Assembly (NCBI GenBank): GCA_025399215.1 | Contig: MU621272.1 | Span: 1-25,792 of the forward strand | Direction: 5' to 3' | Source: Globomyces pollinis-pini | Lineage: Eukaryota > Chytridiomycota > Chytridiomycetes > Rhizophydiales > Globomycetaceae | DNA: 25,792 nucleotides | In this document: one piece after another, positions 7,792 through 25,636 of the stretch | Position numbering within the stretch: position 1 is the first letter of the stretch | How the letters are laid out: each line of letters starts with the position of its first letter | Notes under the pieces: generated by a model | Told to the model about the DNA's origin: nothing | The model's database searches: none | What the model saw: the letters and a program-made list of their open reading frames with translations, nothing else | Translations under genes and position numbers: made by a program

Positions 7792-8479
<688 letters not shown>

Positions 8480-12182: not shown

Positions 12183-15100
12183 ATGAAAGAAATTGTTTTA
12201 AAAGCAGTAAGTAATTTCCCTAATTTATTGGCTAAAATGCAATTAATTCTTACCCGTTTGTCATCTCTTGCTACATGGTATTGCCTTTATCAAGTTGCAC
12301 AAAACCAATTTAAACAATTCAAACCTTACTCTAGATTGTCTAGACTTCAAAAATCTGTATGGAATTTCAATTTTGTTCACTTGGTCGCGTCACTGATATT
12401 TGCTTGGCGAACCATTCAGTTAGGTTTCTTTTCATCTGAATTCTCTTTCATCTCTAAAGCTGAATTGGGGGCCGTAGCAAATGGTTACTACGTATGGGAG
12501 CTACTTTTCACACTGTCAAATATTGGAAACATTCGATACGATAATCTATTTCATGCCTTATTGTCCATAGTACTGACTTATGAATTTAGAATTGAAAATG
12601 CATGGTATTCTCAGCAATTAGAGTTGATGTTAATCAGGTACCTTTTCTTTTAGTTAATGGTAGCAATATTTTCTTGATGATTGGTTGGTTCTCTGAAAAA
12701 ATCGAATTTGTGGACAATAGATTTAAATGGGTTAATTCAGTACTCTTGATTTCATCCTACATCTTATTCCGAATACTCAACAATACTAGAATGTTAGTCA
12801 GCCTGGCATTTGAACGGGGTCTTTGTCACACCATCACCACTGTTGTAGCGGGTAGTTTTTTCTTTATTGGTTTTCTGTCTTTAAATGTCTTTTGGGCTTT
12901 AAAGATTATTTCAAATACCCGAAAACGATTCCCTGATATTCATCCAGCAACTAAAACTATACAGAAAGGATTATTGATTGCTTCTACATTCACATTTATT
13001 CTCAGCTTAGTCTATTATGACTTGGACAATTGGACTTCTTTCAAACAGTTGTTTTTCTCTTGTTTCTTTCTTACTCCAGTCGTTTTGAGACTCAATTTCC
13101 CAGTCTCGAAAAAAAAGAAAATTGTAAACAGAAGTGTTTCAGAAAACGAGGAAATAATTGCAAAAGTGTGGGCACAAGTTCTTGGTCTTGACCTTTTAGA
13201 TATTCGACCAGACAGTGATTTTTTCATGCTTGGTGGAGATTCAATTCTGGCCATACATTTAGTGTCTTCATTAAGAAAGTTAAATATCCACTTGGACGCG
13301 AAAGATCTCTTTGTTCATCGTAGCCTTCGCGATATGACTAACGTTTCAACACCATTAAATCAAAAATACATTACAAATGAAATAGTTGTCAGGTACTTTT
13401 ACGTTCCGTCACTCATAATATTAGTGAATCGACTCAAATAGAAATCAATCAATTATTAGGTTTGCATGGAGGAAAAAAATCTATAGATGATGATATTTTT
13501 CCTTGTTCGCCTTTACAAGAAGCAATGTTTTCATCTAATCAAGTACATCAGGGTTCATTTCTGGAACAAATCATCTGGAGTTTTGAATCGAATTTGATGC
13601 GTGATAAAGTAATTCAAGCATGGTCGAAAGTTGTACTCAAAAACGATATATTACGGACATTGTTTTTCAGTACCAATAATGGGATTTATCAAGTTGTAAG
13701 AAATCCTACATTTATGCCACTGGATTTATATCTAGAATCATCTAACCTCTCACTTAACGCATTCTTACCCCTTGACAAGCAACGTGGATTTAAAGAAGGA
13801 ATTTTACCATGGTTTAGACTCACCAAAATCGAAGGAGATGTAAACCATTTAGTGTTAACTATCCACCATTTGCTATATGATGGTTGGTCTACTGCGTTAT
13901 TCTTTAACGATTTGGAAAATGCATTCAATGGTATGGTATTTTCAACCACTGTTTCCTACAAACCGTATGTACAACACATCATCAATGAAAATCAAGAAAT
14001 GTCGAAGAAGTATTGGACTCAATATCTTCAAGGAATGTCCATCCCATCATTCTTTAACCGAATTCAAAACTCGGAACAATTCAATTCAAACAAAATGATA
14101 TCTTTCTTGAAAGTTTCTCATAGTAAATTAAATGATGCATGTCATCAAGCTCATATCACTAAACCTGTTTTATTAAAGGCAGCGTGGGGGTTGACACTTC
14201 AGAAATACTACCAAACGGAAGATATTGTGTTTGGTGAAGTTGTATCTGGTCGAGACATAACTGTTCCTGATATAGAAATGTAAGTGAAAACCATAGATAG
14301 AATTGATGTTTAGTATCACCGGACCAACTATATCAACAGTACCATGTAGAATGAATATGAAAGATAAACGGTTGTTTTCCATCTTTGAACAACTTTTAAA
14401 TGATCAAATTCACAGAGGTTCTTTTACATCTGTAGGTATTGCCAAAATAGAATCTTGGTGTCAACAAGCTGGAATCATTGAGACTTTGTTTGTTTTTCAA
14501 AACTTTGTAGGAAAGAAATCAGATAATGAAATAATAACACCATCACAATTTGATAGAAATCAATCTGTGATATATCCTATTGAATTGACTTTTATACCAG
14601 AAGTTGATGATATTCAATTGCATTTTTCTTACCTTATATCAAGATTGTCTGTAAATATCGCAAACGATATATTAGAAACTTTTAATCACATTATCAGTCA
14701 GGTGGTAGATGCTTGCATTGGGTTTGTCAATATCAATATCCAAGATCTAACGGTACTTCCTGACCAACAAGTTCAACGATTGTTAACCTTTGGACAGGGT
14801 GCTGTTCAAGAAATTCCTTCAAAACGTGTAGATGAGGTGTTTGAACAATTAGCATTGTTAGATCCTTTTGTCCTTGCAATAGAAGAAGGAGAAAAATCAA
14901 TTAGTTATGGAGAATTAAATGATCGAGCAAATGAATTGGCCAGTTATTTGATCACAAAGGGAATTTGCGTTGGCGATTTTGTTGGTGTAATTACGACTCG
15001 GTCAATCGATATGGTCATTGGATTTTTAGCAGTATTAAAGGCGGGTGGAGCTTTCATCCCAATAGATAGTACTTTACCACTTGCACGACTCCAGTACATC

Positions 15101-18100
15101 CTTGAAAAATCTCAATGTAAATATGTCATGTTGAGGAGTATGAAAGACCATCAAAAAGAGAGATTTGGTGATTCTGGTGATTCATATACATGGATTGATA
15201 TGGAAAGTATAAAAGGGATGAAAGTAGAAGAATGGAATAGGCCAACGGTACCATTGAACAGTCCAGCATACGCTATTTTTACGTCTGGATCAACGGGATC
15301 TCCAAAAGGAGTTGTAATCAGTCATCGATCACTGACAAATTACTCTGCAATTCTTCCAAACATTCATGGGTGTAAAAAAGGAGATCGAGTAGGACAATTT
15401 ACATCAATTTCCTTTGACGTTTGTCTTGGAGATATATTTGATACTCTTTGCAGCCATGCTACATTGGTACTTCGTAGTGATGATGATCCATACAAAATAC
15501 TAAAGTCTGTCAAAATAGTAGTCATGACTCCAACCAGTTTATTAAATCTTGATCCAAATGATTATCCAAATTTAGAAAAATTGATAGTCATTGGGGAAGC
15601 ACTGACTGAAACCCTTCAAAATACTTGGTCCAACAAAACATGGTTTATCAATTCTTATGGACCTACCGAATGTACCATTATATGCTCATATACAACTATC
15701 CATCAGAATGAAGCTATCACTATTGGTGAACCGATGAACAATACTAAGCACTATATTGTAGATAGTTCAATGAACTTAGTACCCGTTGGTGTATCGGGAG
15801 AATTGGTAATTGGTGGGGCCGGGGTAGCATTGGGTTATCTCAATCAACCTGAACTTACTTCAGAACGATTTATTGATAATATTTACACCAAAGATGGCAC
15901 CAAAATGTATCGAACAGGAGATATTTGTAAATGGACCGAAACAGGACAAATTCAAATCCTAGGAAGGACAGATGATATGATTAAATTGAAAGGTTATCGA
16001 ATTGAATTAGATGAAGTTGCATTGAATGTATCAAAACATCCAGATGTTAGTGCTGCAGCAGTTGTGGTGAAAGATGACATGATGGTAGCATTTTTAACAC
16101 CATCTAGTGTAAATGTAGAGAAATTACGAGATTTTGTAACAGATCAATTGCCTCATTATATGGTTCCTGCTGTTTTTCAGACTTTGAAAGAATTTCCTTT
16201 GAATGCTAATGGAAAGGTAACTATTTTTTGGTGATGGTTAATTTTAGATTGATAAAAATCAATTGAAGAGGTTGGAGGTTGATAGTGGATTTGAAGCTCC
16301 AATGAATGAGAATGAAATTGAATTGTCCAAGATTTGGAGTGAAATATTAGGTGTTGATGGATCAAAGATTGGACGACATACATCATTTTTCGCCTTGGGT
16401 GGAGATTCAATTAAAGTGATACAACTTGTCTCTGTTTGTAGAAACATTGGATGGGAGATTTCAACATCAGATGTATTTCGGTATCAAACAATTAGTAGAA
16501 TTGCCAATGTAAAACCAATTGAGTTGATTCAATCTAAATCAACTTGTTTCCCAGTGACAACCTTTCAGTCATTGCTATTATCAGACACCAACCTTTCCTT
16601 AAATCATAGAAATCAATCTGTATTGTTGGAATTGAAACAATCTATGTTGCAAGACACTTTAGAAAGCAAAATTAGAATATTGGTAGAAAGACATGACACG
16701 TTAAGGAGTCGATTTGAGATAGACGATACAAAATGGAATCAAATCATCATTGAAGTCGAAAATTTCAAACATAGAGAACCACTTATGTTTGTTGTATCAA
16801 ATGATGATGAATTGGATTCTGCTTTGATTGATATTCAACAAACGATTGATGTTAGACTTGGCCATGTTTATTCGTATGGAATAATCAAGTACCAGTTAAA
16901 GACCATGTTATTTATTACTTGTCATCAACTTGTGATAGATTCTATGTCCTGGGATATCCTGTTAGGAGATTTAGACATTTTGCTTGCAGGTGGGGAACTA
17001 CAAAAACCATCAGTGACATTGCAACAGTGGATTGATCATAGAGTACAGAATTCAAATCTTGAATGTATTCAACAAGAGTCACATGGTTGTATAAATAGCA
17101 TTCAATCAAGGTACATGCGAGATAATTTAATACTCTTAGGAAACCACTGTCAAATCCAGAATTATTTAATGATTTCACATACAAAGTACTTTTATCAAGT
17201 GATATTTGTTCCAAGTTCCCTCAAGCTAATTTCCCACTGAATACAGCTACACCAGAATTAGTGTTGATGGCATTAATTGACAGTTTGGGAGAATTTCCCG
17301 AAAAAAATGAAAGCATCGGATTTACTTTTGAAAATAACAATAGAAATTATTACAATTCAGAAATAGATATCGAAGGTATCGTTGGATGTTTCACAAAAAT
17401 CATTCCGGTGTGGTTTACAATTGAAAACAAAGATATGGTGACCAGACTCAAAGAATTGAAAGATCTAATTCGAAAAGAGTTATTCATTGAAACTACAAAG
17501 CCATTAAAACAAAACACAGATCAATTGAAGATTAGATTCAAGTATGTTGAAGTATCAAAGCAATCAAGGTGGCATCATTTTGAAATGCTTCATAATCAAG
17601 ACCTCTTTGAAATTGGAGTGGAAAATCTAAATGATGATGATATCACAATCATATGCAGTTTGGACAATGGAACGATTGAATTGAAAGTTGAATTTTATGA
17701 CAACACTATTGAAAGTTATGTAAAGACTTGGTTGGATATTTGGAAACAGAAAATGATAGAATTAGTGATGGCACTTTGCGAGATCAAAGATGTGATTGGT
17801 TTGTCATCGACTGATTTCAATCTTTTATCCAATGACTTTGATATGGATGTATTTGAAACAAGTATTTTAGATTTGGGTTTCAAACTGCAAGATATAGAAG
17901 ATATATATCCAGCAGGACCATTTCAAGAAATGTTTATTGTAAAATGTGATGCAGACCCTCTGTTACCATTCAGCCATGATGTATATGAACTTCAAGAACC
18001 AATTGATATCGAACAATTTCAACAAGCATTTGACAAACTTTACATCAACACACCATTACTAAGAACCACATTCTGTAAAATCAATGATAGAGTGTACCAG

Positions 18101-19157
18101 TTTATTAGAAAACCTCATACACAATTTAAAATCACTCATGTTACTGATTTAAAGGAATATTTACATACCGATCAAAAACGTGGGTTTTTCTTTGGTGAAC
18201 CCTATTGGTTTCGTATTGCAATTCATAAAGGAGAAAAAACTCATTTAATTTTATCAATCTCTCACGCATTATTTGATGGTTGGTCTCATGATACTATTTT
18301 ACAAGATTTGTTCAAGTATTATCAAGGTCAAATAGTTTCCAAACGTACAAGCTATAAAGAATACATTCGATTTATTCTAAATAGAGATCAACAAGAATAT
18401 GAAGAATTCTGGAAATCATACTTTTTAGGATTTGATGGTAGTCATACCCTTGGAACTTCTGATGTTATACCGCAAGGCTTGAATCATGAATCCATCTATT
18501 TGAATTTTGATTTAAAGTCATATTTTCCTGCATTAAACAGAAATGGGCTGACAGTTGCATTAGTATTGAAAGCGTCATTATCTTTGACCCTTCAAAAACT
18601 TCTTGGGGTTGATGATATTGCATTTCTTGAAATGTTGGCAGCTAGAGACATACCACTTGATGGTATTCTTAGGTATGAATCTATTTATTTTTTAACGATT
18701 TAGTATGTTTGCTCCTATGATCAATATGGTTCCTTGTCGAGTATTGTCAACAAAAAACCAAACCATTGCTGAACTCTTTGAATCATTACAAAACAGCTAT
18801 TCTATATTAAGCAAATTTGCTCACTCATATCATACAGAAATCGAACAATGGTCAGGTGTCAAATCAAAATACCATGTTGCTTTTAATCTAACCATTATTT
18901 CAGACATAATGGAACAATTGACGGATCTTCCACTCAAACCTGTGGAAATGGAAAGTGTTCGATACCTTCATGAGTTGGAAGTTGTTGGAGGTCTATATCA
19001 AACTCACTTGCGCGTATTATTAAAATATCATGCAGATGTTATATCAAGAACTAGAATGATTGAATTCCAAGAAAGTCTAAGTATGTGCTTTAAAGGTTTA
19101 TTGGAATTGATAGAGAAGAATCAGTATAAAAGTACTTTGATTACTACCTTTAAATAA
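12183..19157 (+). CDS. TLC-membrane-domain/NRPS fusion, TLC-T-C-A-T-E-C
   Basis: Seven exons: 12183-12637, 12664-13392, 13425-14279, 14314-16216, 16248-17110, 17140-18672 and 18704-19157; introns of 26-34 nt; 2,263 residues. Residues 1-~290 have about eight or nine hydrophobic helices in a TLC-like layout (SVWNFNFVHLVASLIFAW; RYDNLFHALLSIVLTYE). T1 is at ~305-375 (LGGDS ~341). C1 is at ~415-840 (PCSPLQEAM; HHLLYDGWS ~542). A is at ~840-1315 with core motifs FTSGSTGSPKG, NSYGPTE, YRTGDI, GRTDDMIKLKGYRIE and NGK. T2 is at ~1330-1400 (LGGDS). E is at ~1405-1840 with a degenerate HQLVIDSMSW. C2 is at ~1850-2263 (PAGPFQEM; SHALFDGWS). There is no A before T1 and no thioesterase. I infer a membrane-bound peptide synthetase whose T1 is loaded in trans. 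Product unknown. Membrane helices and T1 share one exon, so the fusion is not a splicing guess. Confidence 0.9.
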
Positions 19158-19374
19158 ACGTGTAATTTTTTTGTCATAACTATATCTACACCTCTTATGG
19201 GTAAGACGCGAAAGAATCCTAACAAAATATCCAGACGAGAACAAATTAAATCCGTTATACTACTTGAGTGATACCCTATCGTCGATAAGGAGGGACATTC
19301 TTTTAAAGGCAAAACGATGGGTTTCTTTTTGTTCTCTTTAATACCTGGCAGCAGCAAAAGTCATTAAAGTTTTT
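19155..19374. other. Spacer with possible transposase N-terminal remnant
   Basis: A 24-codon frame at 19197-19271 (MGKTRKNPNKISRREQIKSV, then ILLE and TGA) looks like the helix-turn-helix start of a Tc1/mariner-type transposase. It ends in the 20-bp repeat that recurs at 21322-21341. No further transposase is readable. Confidence 0.3.
19255..19274 (+). repeat. 20-bp direct repeat, left copy
   Basis: TTATACTACTTGAGTGATAC is identical to 21322-21341. The two copies bracket the HNH gene and the NRPS fragment in the same orientation. Confidence 0.85.
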
Positions 19375-20520
19375 ATGATGGAAAGTTTGTTCCACGAAAT
19401 TGTGGCTGGCGTTTCAAAATATCTTTCCAAATCAAAAATGGACCCACAGGAATTACTACAAGAAAGAATTAATAGAGCTGAAGCTGCTATGGAGAAAGGG
19501 CAAACTGCTATGGAGAAAGCGGAAACTGCTATGGAGAAAGCGGAAACCGCTGTGGAGAAAGCGGAAACTGCTATGGAAGTAGCAACAGAAACTTTGGAAA
19601 AGTGGAAACAAGAAAATCCTGGATTCTCTGTTACAAATGAGTGTTACTTATACTACCAGAAGGAAGTGGATAAGTGTTACAATGCTCTGGATAAGTGTTA
19701 CAATGCTCTGGATAAGCGTTACAATGCTCTTGAAAGAAAAGAGGAAATCTACAAGGAGCTGGTAAAGACTTATGAAAAGTTGATCGAGAAAATGCCTTCT
19801 GCTAATGGTGTTGCTGTAGCTGACGTGAAAGAATTAATTAATCAAAATAAGCAATTATTTGATCTTATTCACCATGAACAATCTAGCAATAGTGACTCAA
19901 AAAGAAGTAGTGCAGGACGTAATAGCACGATTCAAAATAAGTTTAGAGAAAAATTGATAGCAAGAGACAAAGTTTGTGTTATTTCTGGAAATGAAACTGT
20001 AGAAGCTTGCCATATTATCCCTTACCGTTTCCCATCAGATAATAGTGGAATTTGGTGTCAAAAGTACAATCGATTTTGCTTTGACCGAGATGAAGGGATA
20101 TCTGATGTTCGAAATGGAATTCTTTTATCTAAATGTTTTCATAATCGTTTTGAGAAATATCAGTTTACTATTATATTTGAAGAAAACTTGTACAAAATCA
20201 AAGTTGGTGCAATCCCAATTCCACACCTTGAGAATGGTAAGGTATTATCATTTCCTACTGGCGAGGATTCAAATGGAAATGAATGGAAAGACCAATGGCC
20301 TGCACCAGAGTTTCTTAAATGGCATAATGATAATTTTGATAAAAACTCATTCAAGTTAAATACCGATGGTACCATCATGCATTTTGATTTTGATGAAAAT
20401 GACTATCGGATAAAATGGCTAAATGAACAATTGTCTACTACTGATTATGAAGATCCCAAACTTTCAATTAGAGCACCTAAAGATAGCTTGGAATTTATGG
20501 AACAATTGCAATCTTTATGA
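19375..20520 (+). CDS. HNH nuclease-domain protein with heptad-repeat coiled coil
   Basis: Intronless, 381 residues, unlike most neighbours. Residues ~35-75 are five 7-residue units (AMEKAET type) and ~99-119 are three units of DKCYNAL, so the N-terminal half is a repeat-built coiled coil. From about residue 195 a fungal HNH_2-type nuclease core follows: CVISGN...EACHIIPY, then DVRNGILLSKCFHNRFEKYQF. The expected His, Asn and His positions are present. HNH domains of this type occur in multicopy fungal genes and in crinkler-like effectors. The role here is unknown. Alternatives are a selfish or mobile nuclease or a host- or rival-directed effector; no signal peptide is visible. The gene sits between two copies of a 20-bp repeat, together with an NRPS fragment. 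The next in-frame ATG after 19375 is the adjacent codon 2. Confidence 0.82.
   Translation: MMESLFHEIVAGVSKYLSKSKMDPQELLQERINRAEAAMEKGQTAMEKAETAMEKAETAVEKAETAMEVATETLEKWKQENPGFSVTNECYLYYQKEVDKCYNALDKCYNALDKRYNALERKEEIYKELVKTYEKLIEKMPSANGVAVADVKELINQNKQLFDLIHHEQSSNSDSKRSSAGRNSTIQNKFREKLIARDKVCVISGNETVEACHIIPYRFPSDNSGIWCQKYNRFCFDRDEGISDVRNGILLSKCFHNRFEKYQFTIIFEENLYKIKVGAIPIPHLENGKVLSFPTGEDSNGNEWKDQWPAPEFLKWHNDNFDKNSFKLNTDGTIMHFDFDENDYRIKWLNEQLSTTDYEDPKLSIRAPKDSLEFMEQLQSL
19486..19590 (+). repeat. 21-bp coding minisatellite, five units (AMEKAET)
   Basis: Units at 19486, 19507, 19528, 19549 and 19570. The middle ones differ by one or two bases; the last is degenerate. Each encodes one heptad. Confidence 0.9.
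19669..19731 (+). repeat. 21-bp coding minisatellite, three units (DKCYNAL)
   Basis: Units at 19669, 19690 and 19711, nearly identical, each encoding one heptad of the HNH protein's coiled coil. Unrelated in sequence to the first minisatellite but of the same period. Confidence 0.9.
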
Positions 20521-20884: not shown

Positions 20885-20906
20885 TCTCCTCTAAAATAAA
20901 TCGGTA
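20885..20906 (+). repeat. 22-bp direct repeat, copy 2, beside the NRPS fragment
   Basis: Exact copy of 20656-20677, ending 26 bp before the left edge of the duplicated NRPS segment. Confidence 0.85.
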
Positions 20907-20932
20907 CAATTCGGTGTCCAATGCTTACTACT

Positions 20933-21322
20933 GCCGGGATAGCATTGGGTTATCTCAATCAACCTGAACTTACTTCAGAACGATTTATTGATAATATTTA
21001 CACCAAAGATGGCACCAAAATGTATCGAACAGGAGATATTTGTAAATGGACCGAAACAGGACAAATTCAAATCCTAGGAAGGACAGATGATATGATTAAA
21101 TTGAAAGGATATCGAATTGAATTAGATGAAGTTGCATTGAATGTATCAAAACATCCTGATGTTAGTGCTGCAGCAGTTGTGGTGAAAGATGACATGATGG
21201 TAGCATTTTTAACACCATCTAGTGTAAATGTAGAGAAATTACGAGATTTTGTAACAGATCAATTGCCTCATTATATGGTTCCTGCTGTTTTTCAGACTTT
21301 GAAAGAATTTCCTTTGAATGCT
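20933..21322 (+). pseudogene. 390-bp duplicated fragment of the NRPS adenylation domain
   Basis: Matches 15818-16207 of the NRPS gene without indels and with three mismatches by eye (near 20940, 21108 and 21156), about 99% identity. It covers the region from just after motif A6 (GGAGVALGYL) through A7 (YRTGDI) and A8 (GRTDDMIKLKGYRIE) to just before NGK. An ATG at 20921 in the flanking DNA happens to open the same frame, giving 137 residues to the TGA at 21332-21334. It lacks the ATP-binding and substrate-pocket motifs, so it cannot be a working adenylation domain. I infer a recent segmental duplication rather than a gene. Confidence 0.9.
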
Positions 21323-21341
21323 TATACTACTTGAGTGATAC
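21322..21341 (+). repeat. 20-bp direct repeat, right copy
   Basis: Identical to 19255-19274. It begins exactly where similarity of the NRPS fragment to its parent ends, so it marks the rearrangement junction. Confidence 0.85.
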
Positions 21342-21478
21342 TTTCATCCCGAATTTCATTTCCTTCATTTTTTTAATACAACTTACCATCACGTCACACA
21401 AACCTTTCAAAGGGGAGAATGAAACAAATTCCCAACAACAAAAAAAAGGCTTGTTGAAAAAGTTTGTAAAAATCCAAG

Positions 21479-24603: not shown

Positions 24604-25636
<1,033 letters not shown>

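Follow-up and report, generated by a model that had tools for sequence, protein, structure and literature searches.

An NRPS of the chytrid Globomyces pollinis-pini with a TLC-type membrane domain at its N-terminus

The window, a stretch of 25,792 nucleotides that makes up contig MU621272.1 of Globomyces pollinis-pini (Chytridiomycota, Rhizophydiales), carries on its plus strand a single intact gene of seven exons (12183–19157), stop-free throughout and encoding a protein of 2263 aa. The protein has the domain order TLC-T-C-A-T-E-C, with T, C and A domains assigned by Pfam and a degenerate E domain; C, A and T domains with their core motifs lie in one chain, as in an NRPS, and the N-terminal membrane domain is, judged by homology, a TLC domain. 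We lean slightly toward reading the product as a membrane-anchored TLC-NRPS in which the first carrier domain (T1) would be an acyl-starter station and the first condensation domain (C1) would acylate the amino acid of the A domain on the second carrier domain (T2). This reading starts from the fused frame, the TLC homology, the domain order, the lack of an A domain before T1 and the kinship of C1; the topology, the acyl starter, the product and the membrane are proposed on that footing.

The exons (12183–12637, 12664–13392, 13425–14279, 14314–16216, 16248–17110, 17140–18672 and 18704–19157) are separated by six GT-AG introns of 26–34 nt each, and the start ATG stands immediately after an in-frame stop. 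Gene model and TLC profile together place the N-terminal half of the TLC domain (residues 1–151), which runs from TM1 into the beginning of TM5, in exon 1. Exon 2 is a single open frame containing the C-terminal half of that domain, two additional TM helices, a linker and T1 (PF00550, 13157–13339, residues 317–377, E 1e-14), whose LGGDS motif lies at 13229–13243. Between the two exons lies a 26-nt GT-AG intron (12638–12663). The original prediction had given 12183–13392 for this region and had placed helices and an LGGDS carrier in one uninterrupted exon (12664–13392); both statements are confirmed.

Further along the plus strand follow C1 (13492–14782), with an intact HHLLYDG motif and the intron 14280–14313 inside it, the sole A domain of the gene (14876–16216; AMP-binding and AMP-binding_C), T2 (16323–16508, LGGDS), an epimerisation-like domain (16548–17800, right border approximate) and a terminal condensation domain with the motif SHALFDG and no carrier behind it (17897–19100, right border approximate); the stop codon is at 19155–19157. 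The motifs of T1, T2, C1 and the A domain are intact. Pfam detects no A domain upstream of T1 in the window, and since the only one comes after C1, T1 is left without a dedicated A domain. The epimerisation-like domain was assigned by similarity to the T-E-C stretch of P0022, an NRPS encoded on contig C360 of the same genome, and by motifs typical of E domains. It is most similar to the E part of P0022 (133 bits), and its catalytic motif reads CHQLVID versus HHLVID in P0022. With one motif histidine lost, the gene may be in decay in places.

The same gene is publicly represented by protein P0003 (BC833DRAFT_599394, Globomyces pollinis-pini, 2092 aa), whose model begins at 12602, inside the TLC domain, is without exon 1, reads through intron 1 and splices T1 to C1 differently from the present model. 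Intron 1 matches an intron of a free-standing TLC gene, as described below; exon 1 therefore belongs to the gene, and the present model corrects the public start. The discrepant start and splice, together with the listing of P0003 on a 35,211-base contig compared with 25,792 bases here, could be taken as signs of an assembly or gene-model artefact in which two genes are read as one. We regard this as very improbable, as helices 6–9 of the TLC region lie within one exon with T1, the first intron has its counterpart in a TLC gene, and the public model, although probably derived from the same assembly, likewise joins these helices to T1.

No match to PF03798 or any other TLC family is obtained with Pfam for the spliced N-terminus, its exon pieces or P0003, and NCBIfam likewise yields no TLC match in the N-terminus. 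The relationship emerges within the genome itself (18.55 Mb in 459 contigs, the window being contig C183): exon 2 matches a place on contig C332 with 33% identity (E 2e-4), and PF03798 matches that place too, while exon 1 alone recovers only itself. Three proteins were taken from PF03798-matching places of this genome, C332a, C332b and C63; C332b was spliced by hand and the other two by our own aligner. Once spliced, C332b reaches 107 bits against PF03798. In blastp the window domain aligns with C63 at 54.7 bits (242 columns), with C332b at 50.4 bits (218 columns) and with C332a at 46.2 bits (102 columns). A profile built from the three sequences gives it 49.8 bits, compared with a maximum of 11.8 bits among 10,000 shuffles (5,000 full and 5,000 local shuffles of the domain) and a reversed copy, and hhalign of the trio against the domain reports 95.7% probability across 211 columns. 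Family positions that are kept include the Trp of GYxxW, His124, Arg188 and the SxIF stretch. The homology to accepted TLC members is thus domain-long, and the TLC-like N-terminus announced by the original prediction stands despite the silence of Pfam and NCBIfam: where a lack of any TLC match would have counted against it, a TLC relationship was found instead.

Comparisons beyond this trio gave little. With phmmer against solved structures, the window domain produces only hits of E ≥ 0.56 and C332b only hits of E ≥ 0.53. On contig C40 (9586–14049), at least four ceramide-synthase-like genes with HH and HDxSDP motifs stand in tandem. In hhalign, neither the trio nor the window domain shows a domain match to the ceramide synthases of the genome, and a C332b-guided alignment onto four of the C40 genes was unsuccessful (scores 40–44).

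The sole intron inside the TLC part (intron 1, phase 2) splits the Ser of LI-S-NIFL, and intron 2 of C63 splits that of EV-S-TIFL at the same position and in the same phase. The three TLC genes have seven distinct intron sites over about 250 codons, one of them matching, and we estimate chance agreement in both position and phase at about one percent. This agreement points to a common origin of the TLC part and the C63 gene.

Codon usage ties the TLC part to the rest of the gene in one respect and sets it apart in another. Its synonymous codon choice is like that of the NRPS exons in the coding frame only: the in-frame score is +0.025 per codon (training exons, +0.066), against −0.19 to −0.33 for the two other plus frames and the three reverse frames. 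GC by codon position differs, being 0.35, 0.33 and 0.34 in the TLC part and 0.44, 0.32 and 0.26 in the NRPS part. The latter difference would fit a fusion that arose recently and by chance in an NRPS gene now in decay and functionless at present, as would the changed E motif, the occurrence of the fusion in one species only and a 99% identical A-domain fragment 5.1 kb downstream, which shows local rearrangement. Such a history seems to us quite improbable, given seven exons with six GT-AG introns and 2263 codons free of stops, the intact motifs of T1, T2, C1 and A, and the codon choice shared with the NRPS exons.

Several other features of the window were recorded. The end of the A domain (15818–16117) is duplicated at 20933–21232 as a stranded fragment within an ORF (20900–21331), adjoined by an HNH_2 coiled-coil-like ORF at 19342–20517; by eye, a short sequence is common to the surroundings of ~19257 and ~21324. 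Two pieces of an Arf-family GTPase on the minus strand (7802–8101 and 24614–24913) are 99% identical and lie 16.8 kb apart. A PAN-domain protein at 493–1606 contains 243-nt tandem repeats that are 64–88% alike to the reference copy.

The original prediction counted eight to nine helices. Alignment to the TLC family gives seven, with homology ending at about residue 243, and two extra hydrophobic helices follow at residues 254–299 (12968–13105), flanked by K/R-rich loops on both sides and missing from C332a, C332b and C63; T1 comes next. Seven plus this hairpin agrees with the predicted number as an estimate, but simple hydropathy cut-offs return only five or six. The loops behind helices 7 and 9 contain six K/R residues apiece. 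As positively charged loops lie on the cytosolic side under the positive-inside rule, T1 would be expected to face the cytosol. A single-sequence AlphaFold model of exon 2 alone is too poor (pLDDT 47.7) to judge the six-to-seven-helix barrel of TLC folds. Scanning 121 NRPSs for hydropathy gives a weak contrast, with 0.61 for the window protein and at most 0.54 for 118 others, next to 0.88 for P0019 and 0.50 for P0003, its own truncated copy; on another scale the window protein is not separated from other NRPSs.

The place of the TLC domain within the synthetase gains meaning from the relatives of C1. In a tree of 37 C domains, C1 forms a clade (support 100/99) with the C1 domains of three Rhizophydiales proteins: P0012 of Boothiomyces macroporosus (HK103_004151), P0018 of Terramyces sp. 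JEL0728 (HDV01_007254) and P0019 of Boothiomyces sp. JEL0866 (HDV06_001686). These are also its best non-self matches among the retrieved proteins, at 249, 245 and 234 bits, the next being at 194. The tree was drawn from 20 chosen sequence sets, keeping domains that reached 330 residues and 40 bits; it includes three further domains of Globomyces, two of them from P0022 and one from C60, all outside the C1 clade, and exons of this genome entered unjoined, C75 and C289 giving none. All three relatives have the architecture SAT-T-C-A-T-C, where SAT is PF16073, so that the window gene has its C1 in the condensation clade of SAT-T-C proteins and its TLC domain occupies the place of their acyl loader.

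The SAT parts of these relatives contain GHSQG and share 43–48%, 33–37% and 40–43% identity with three open-frame pieces of the fatty acid synthase (FAS) beta gene of Globomyces. Given this resemblance, the N-terminal starter domain of P0012, P0018 and P0019 looks like an acyltransferase captured from fatty acid synthase beta. A separate SAT-NRPS in the Globomyces genome was considered and rejected, for the only SAT match found there (C35) is the FAS beta gene. Residues 1–315 of the window protein have no SAT or FAS similarity, so no SAT precedes its T1. P0019 additionally has about seven hydrophobic helices ahead of its SAT (residues 1–235), either a real fusion or a model error; they have no Pfam match and no sequence similarity to the window TLC domain or to a window ORF at 21470.

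Outside C1 the kinship fades. The region-wise comparison covered the T1, C1, A-plus-T2, E and C2 stretches. The ten best matches of T1 exclude P0012, P0018 and P0019; the A stretch (residues 850–1395, T2 included) is closest to Globomyces P0022 (503 bits versus 467–481 for the SAT relatives); and the terminal C forms no clade with theirs. Because C1 alone groups with the SAT-NRPSs, the window gene is, on these similarities, a mosaic rather than an orthologue in which only the front is new.

A weak A-subdomain remnant is likely, though only that, between SAT and T1 of the relatives. There blastp finds nothing significant for such a remnant, while a profile of 67 A-subdomains scores 11.7 bits for P0019, 8.2 for P0018 and 6.6 for P0012, against −1.4 or less for a SAT part and for the window protein; the best single stretches reach 11.4 (with GKID), 7.6 and 5.0 bits, respectively. 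This suggests a common ancestor that started from an amino acid, in which case acyl loading may be later than the split. In the likely history, the front was once A-T-C; an acyltransferase took over the place of the A domain in one family, and a TLC domain did so in Globomyces.

We propose that the gene product would be a single membrane protein, probably residing in the ER, whose NRPS part would lie on the cytosolic side. The TLC domain, seven helices with an added two-helix hairpin, would anchor it at the N-terminus and hold T1 at its cytosolic mouth, T1 being the putative station at which a lipid-type acyl group, instead of an amino acid, enters as starter. C1 would couple this group to the one amino acid that the sole A domain activates and T2 carries, and the terminal C domain would release or transfer the product, likely an N-acyl amino acid or a small lipopeptide. 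T1 thus probably carries an acyl starter at the membrane, the best reading given that TLC and FAS-type acyltransferase donors both come from lipid metabolism; the acyl starter for T1 that the original prediction had suggested is supported by the FAS-type acyltransferase found at the same place in the nearest NRPSs by C1. Several findings speak against the proposal: three of four ceramide-synthase catalytic residues are absent and a His is lost from the E-like motif, the kinship is limited to C1, the relatives have no E-like domain, the TLC fusion occurs in one species, GC by codon position differs along the gene, the hydropathy contrast is weak, and the A-subdomain remnant of the relatives would allow acyl loading to have arisen after the split.

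What the TLC domain itself does can be approached through ceramide synthases. According to PMC11919693, the first histidine of their HH pair is acylated to an acyl-imidazole, the second histidine and two aspartates are required, and CerS6 with His212Ala is inactive. By MAFFT alignment, the window domain keeps one of these four residues, His124, subject to a possible one-residue shift; its codon (12552–12554) aligns under E-INS-i with CerS6 His211, the first of the pair. Ala125, Leu150 and Asn153 stand where CerS6 has His212, Asp239 and Asp242; this mapping was made by MAFFT only, with CerS pieces joined by hand, and may be off by one residue. The HH pair with two Lag1-motif acids of a catalytic TLC domain is therefore incomplete, and since three of the four residues are replaced, ceramide-synthase chemistry as such is not expected of the window domain. 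The free TLC proteins C332a, C332b and C63 keep the His plus one Glu, at whose place the window has Leu150.

Such a domain might be an inert anchor that does no more than position the NRPS at a membrane, while a free acyl-AMP ligase, an acyltransferase or an A domain loads T1 in trans. His124 being all that is kept of the catalytic set, the acid positions being occupied by Leu150 and Asn153, and the divergence beyond the reach of Pfam all fit this idea, but nine helices are unnecessary for anchoring, the GYxxW Trp, His124, Arg188 and SxIF are conserved, and the place is that of the acyl loader in the relatives. On balance we find it rather unlikely. The TLC domain could also be a starter acyltransferase in its own right, with acyl-CoA or a membrane lipid as donor and His124 passing the acyl group on to the phosphopantetheine thiol of T1. 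It stands ahead of T1-C1, at the position where the relatives have the captured FAS acyltransferase, and in PMC11919693 the residue aligned with His124 is the nucleophile that forms the acyl-imidazole; the equivalents of His212, Asp239 and Asp242 are missing, however, and the same paper reports CerS6 His212Ala as inactive. We hold this role to be unlikely.

T1 carries the same phosphopantetheine arm as CoA. The cavity of CerS6 has a cytoplasmic opening where CoA sits (PMC11919693), and for this reason the tethered arm of T1 could reach a CerS-like cavity.

If the fusion is what it appears to be, it represents an N-terminal TLC-type means by which a eukaryotic membrane can hold an NRPS, and it offers a new candidate for how a lipid starter is loaded. 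The front of one NRPS lineage would have been exchanged within one chytrid order, as seen in an A remnant, an FAS acyltransferase and a TLC domain, providing a testable case for the origin of lipopeptide synthetases. Were the TLC domain an acyltransferase, lipid-metabolism domains would have been recruited twice, from different families, in making one NRPS lineage a lipopeptide maker. To our knowledge, little is known about the chemistry of TLC proteins besides ceramide synthases, and one wired to a carrier domain could reveal, by a covalent read-out, which group it transfers.

We found no second TLC-NRPS. The 315-aa domain, compared with 5.8 billion proteins through those 0.55–1.75 times its length that share 5-residue words, has nothing at E ≤ 10 among 2252 candidates; residues 1–310, run against 1524 long candidates, match only P0003, their own copy, at E ≤ 1. 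Among 119 NRPS relatives besides P0003 (120 listed of 2036), no TLC domain is seen, the best E values being 5.7 for the profile and 0.37 for the window domain. These searches reach only proteins with exact short words in common. A full-text literature search, with subscription papers mostly outside its scope, found no paper on a TLC-NRPS fusion.

Among known systems, ceramide synthases (CerS6 and the tandem genes on C40) share with the window domain the TLC family and, by alignment, a His at the nucleophile position; unlike them, it lacks the second His and both acids and is joined to an NRPS. The TLC proteins from C63 and C332 are homologous to it over the whole domain, and C63 alone has an intron in common with it, but they are free-standing proteins of ~260 aa without carrier, extra hairpin or NRPS. 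These free proteins presumably resemble TMEM56/TLCD4. TMEM56 binds CerS2 and alters ceramide levels, according to PMC13147617.

The original prediction regarded NRPSs as normally soluble, which needs a caveat. Epsilon-poly-lysine and delta-poly-ornithine synthetases, as described in PMC10522769, are membrane-fixed NRPSs, and a membrane NRPS is hence already known. Like the window protein, they have NRPS modules held in the membrane by their own helices; their membrane part is C-terminal, has six predicted helices with soluble inserts, is needed for polymerisation and is not TLC.

The closest comparison remains with the SAT-NRPSs P0012, P0018 and P0019, which share with the window protein the plan X-T-C-A-T-...-C, a single A domain and a terminal C. 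In these relatives X is an FAS-beta-type acyltransferase (PF16073) and not TLC, and T1 is preceded by the weak A-subdomain remnant. With two condensation-type domains they have no E domain, whereas the window protein has an E-like one, and their terminal C falls outside its clade.
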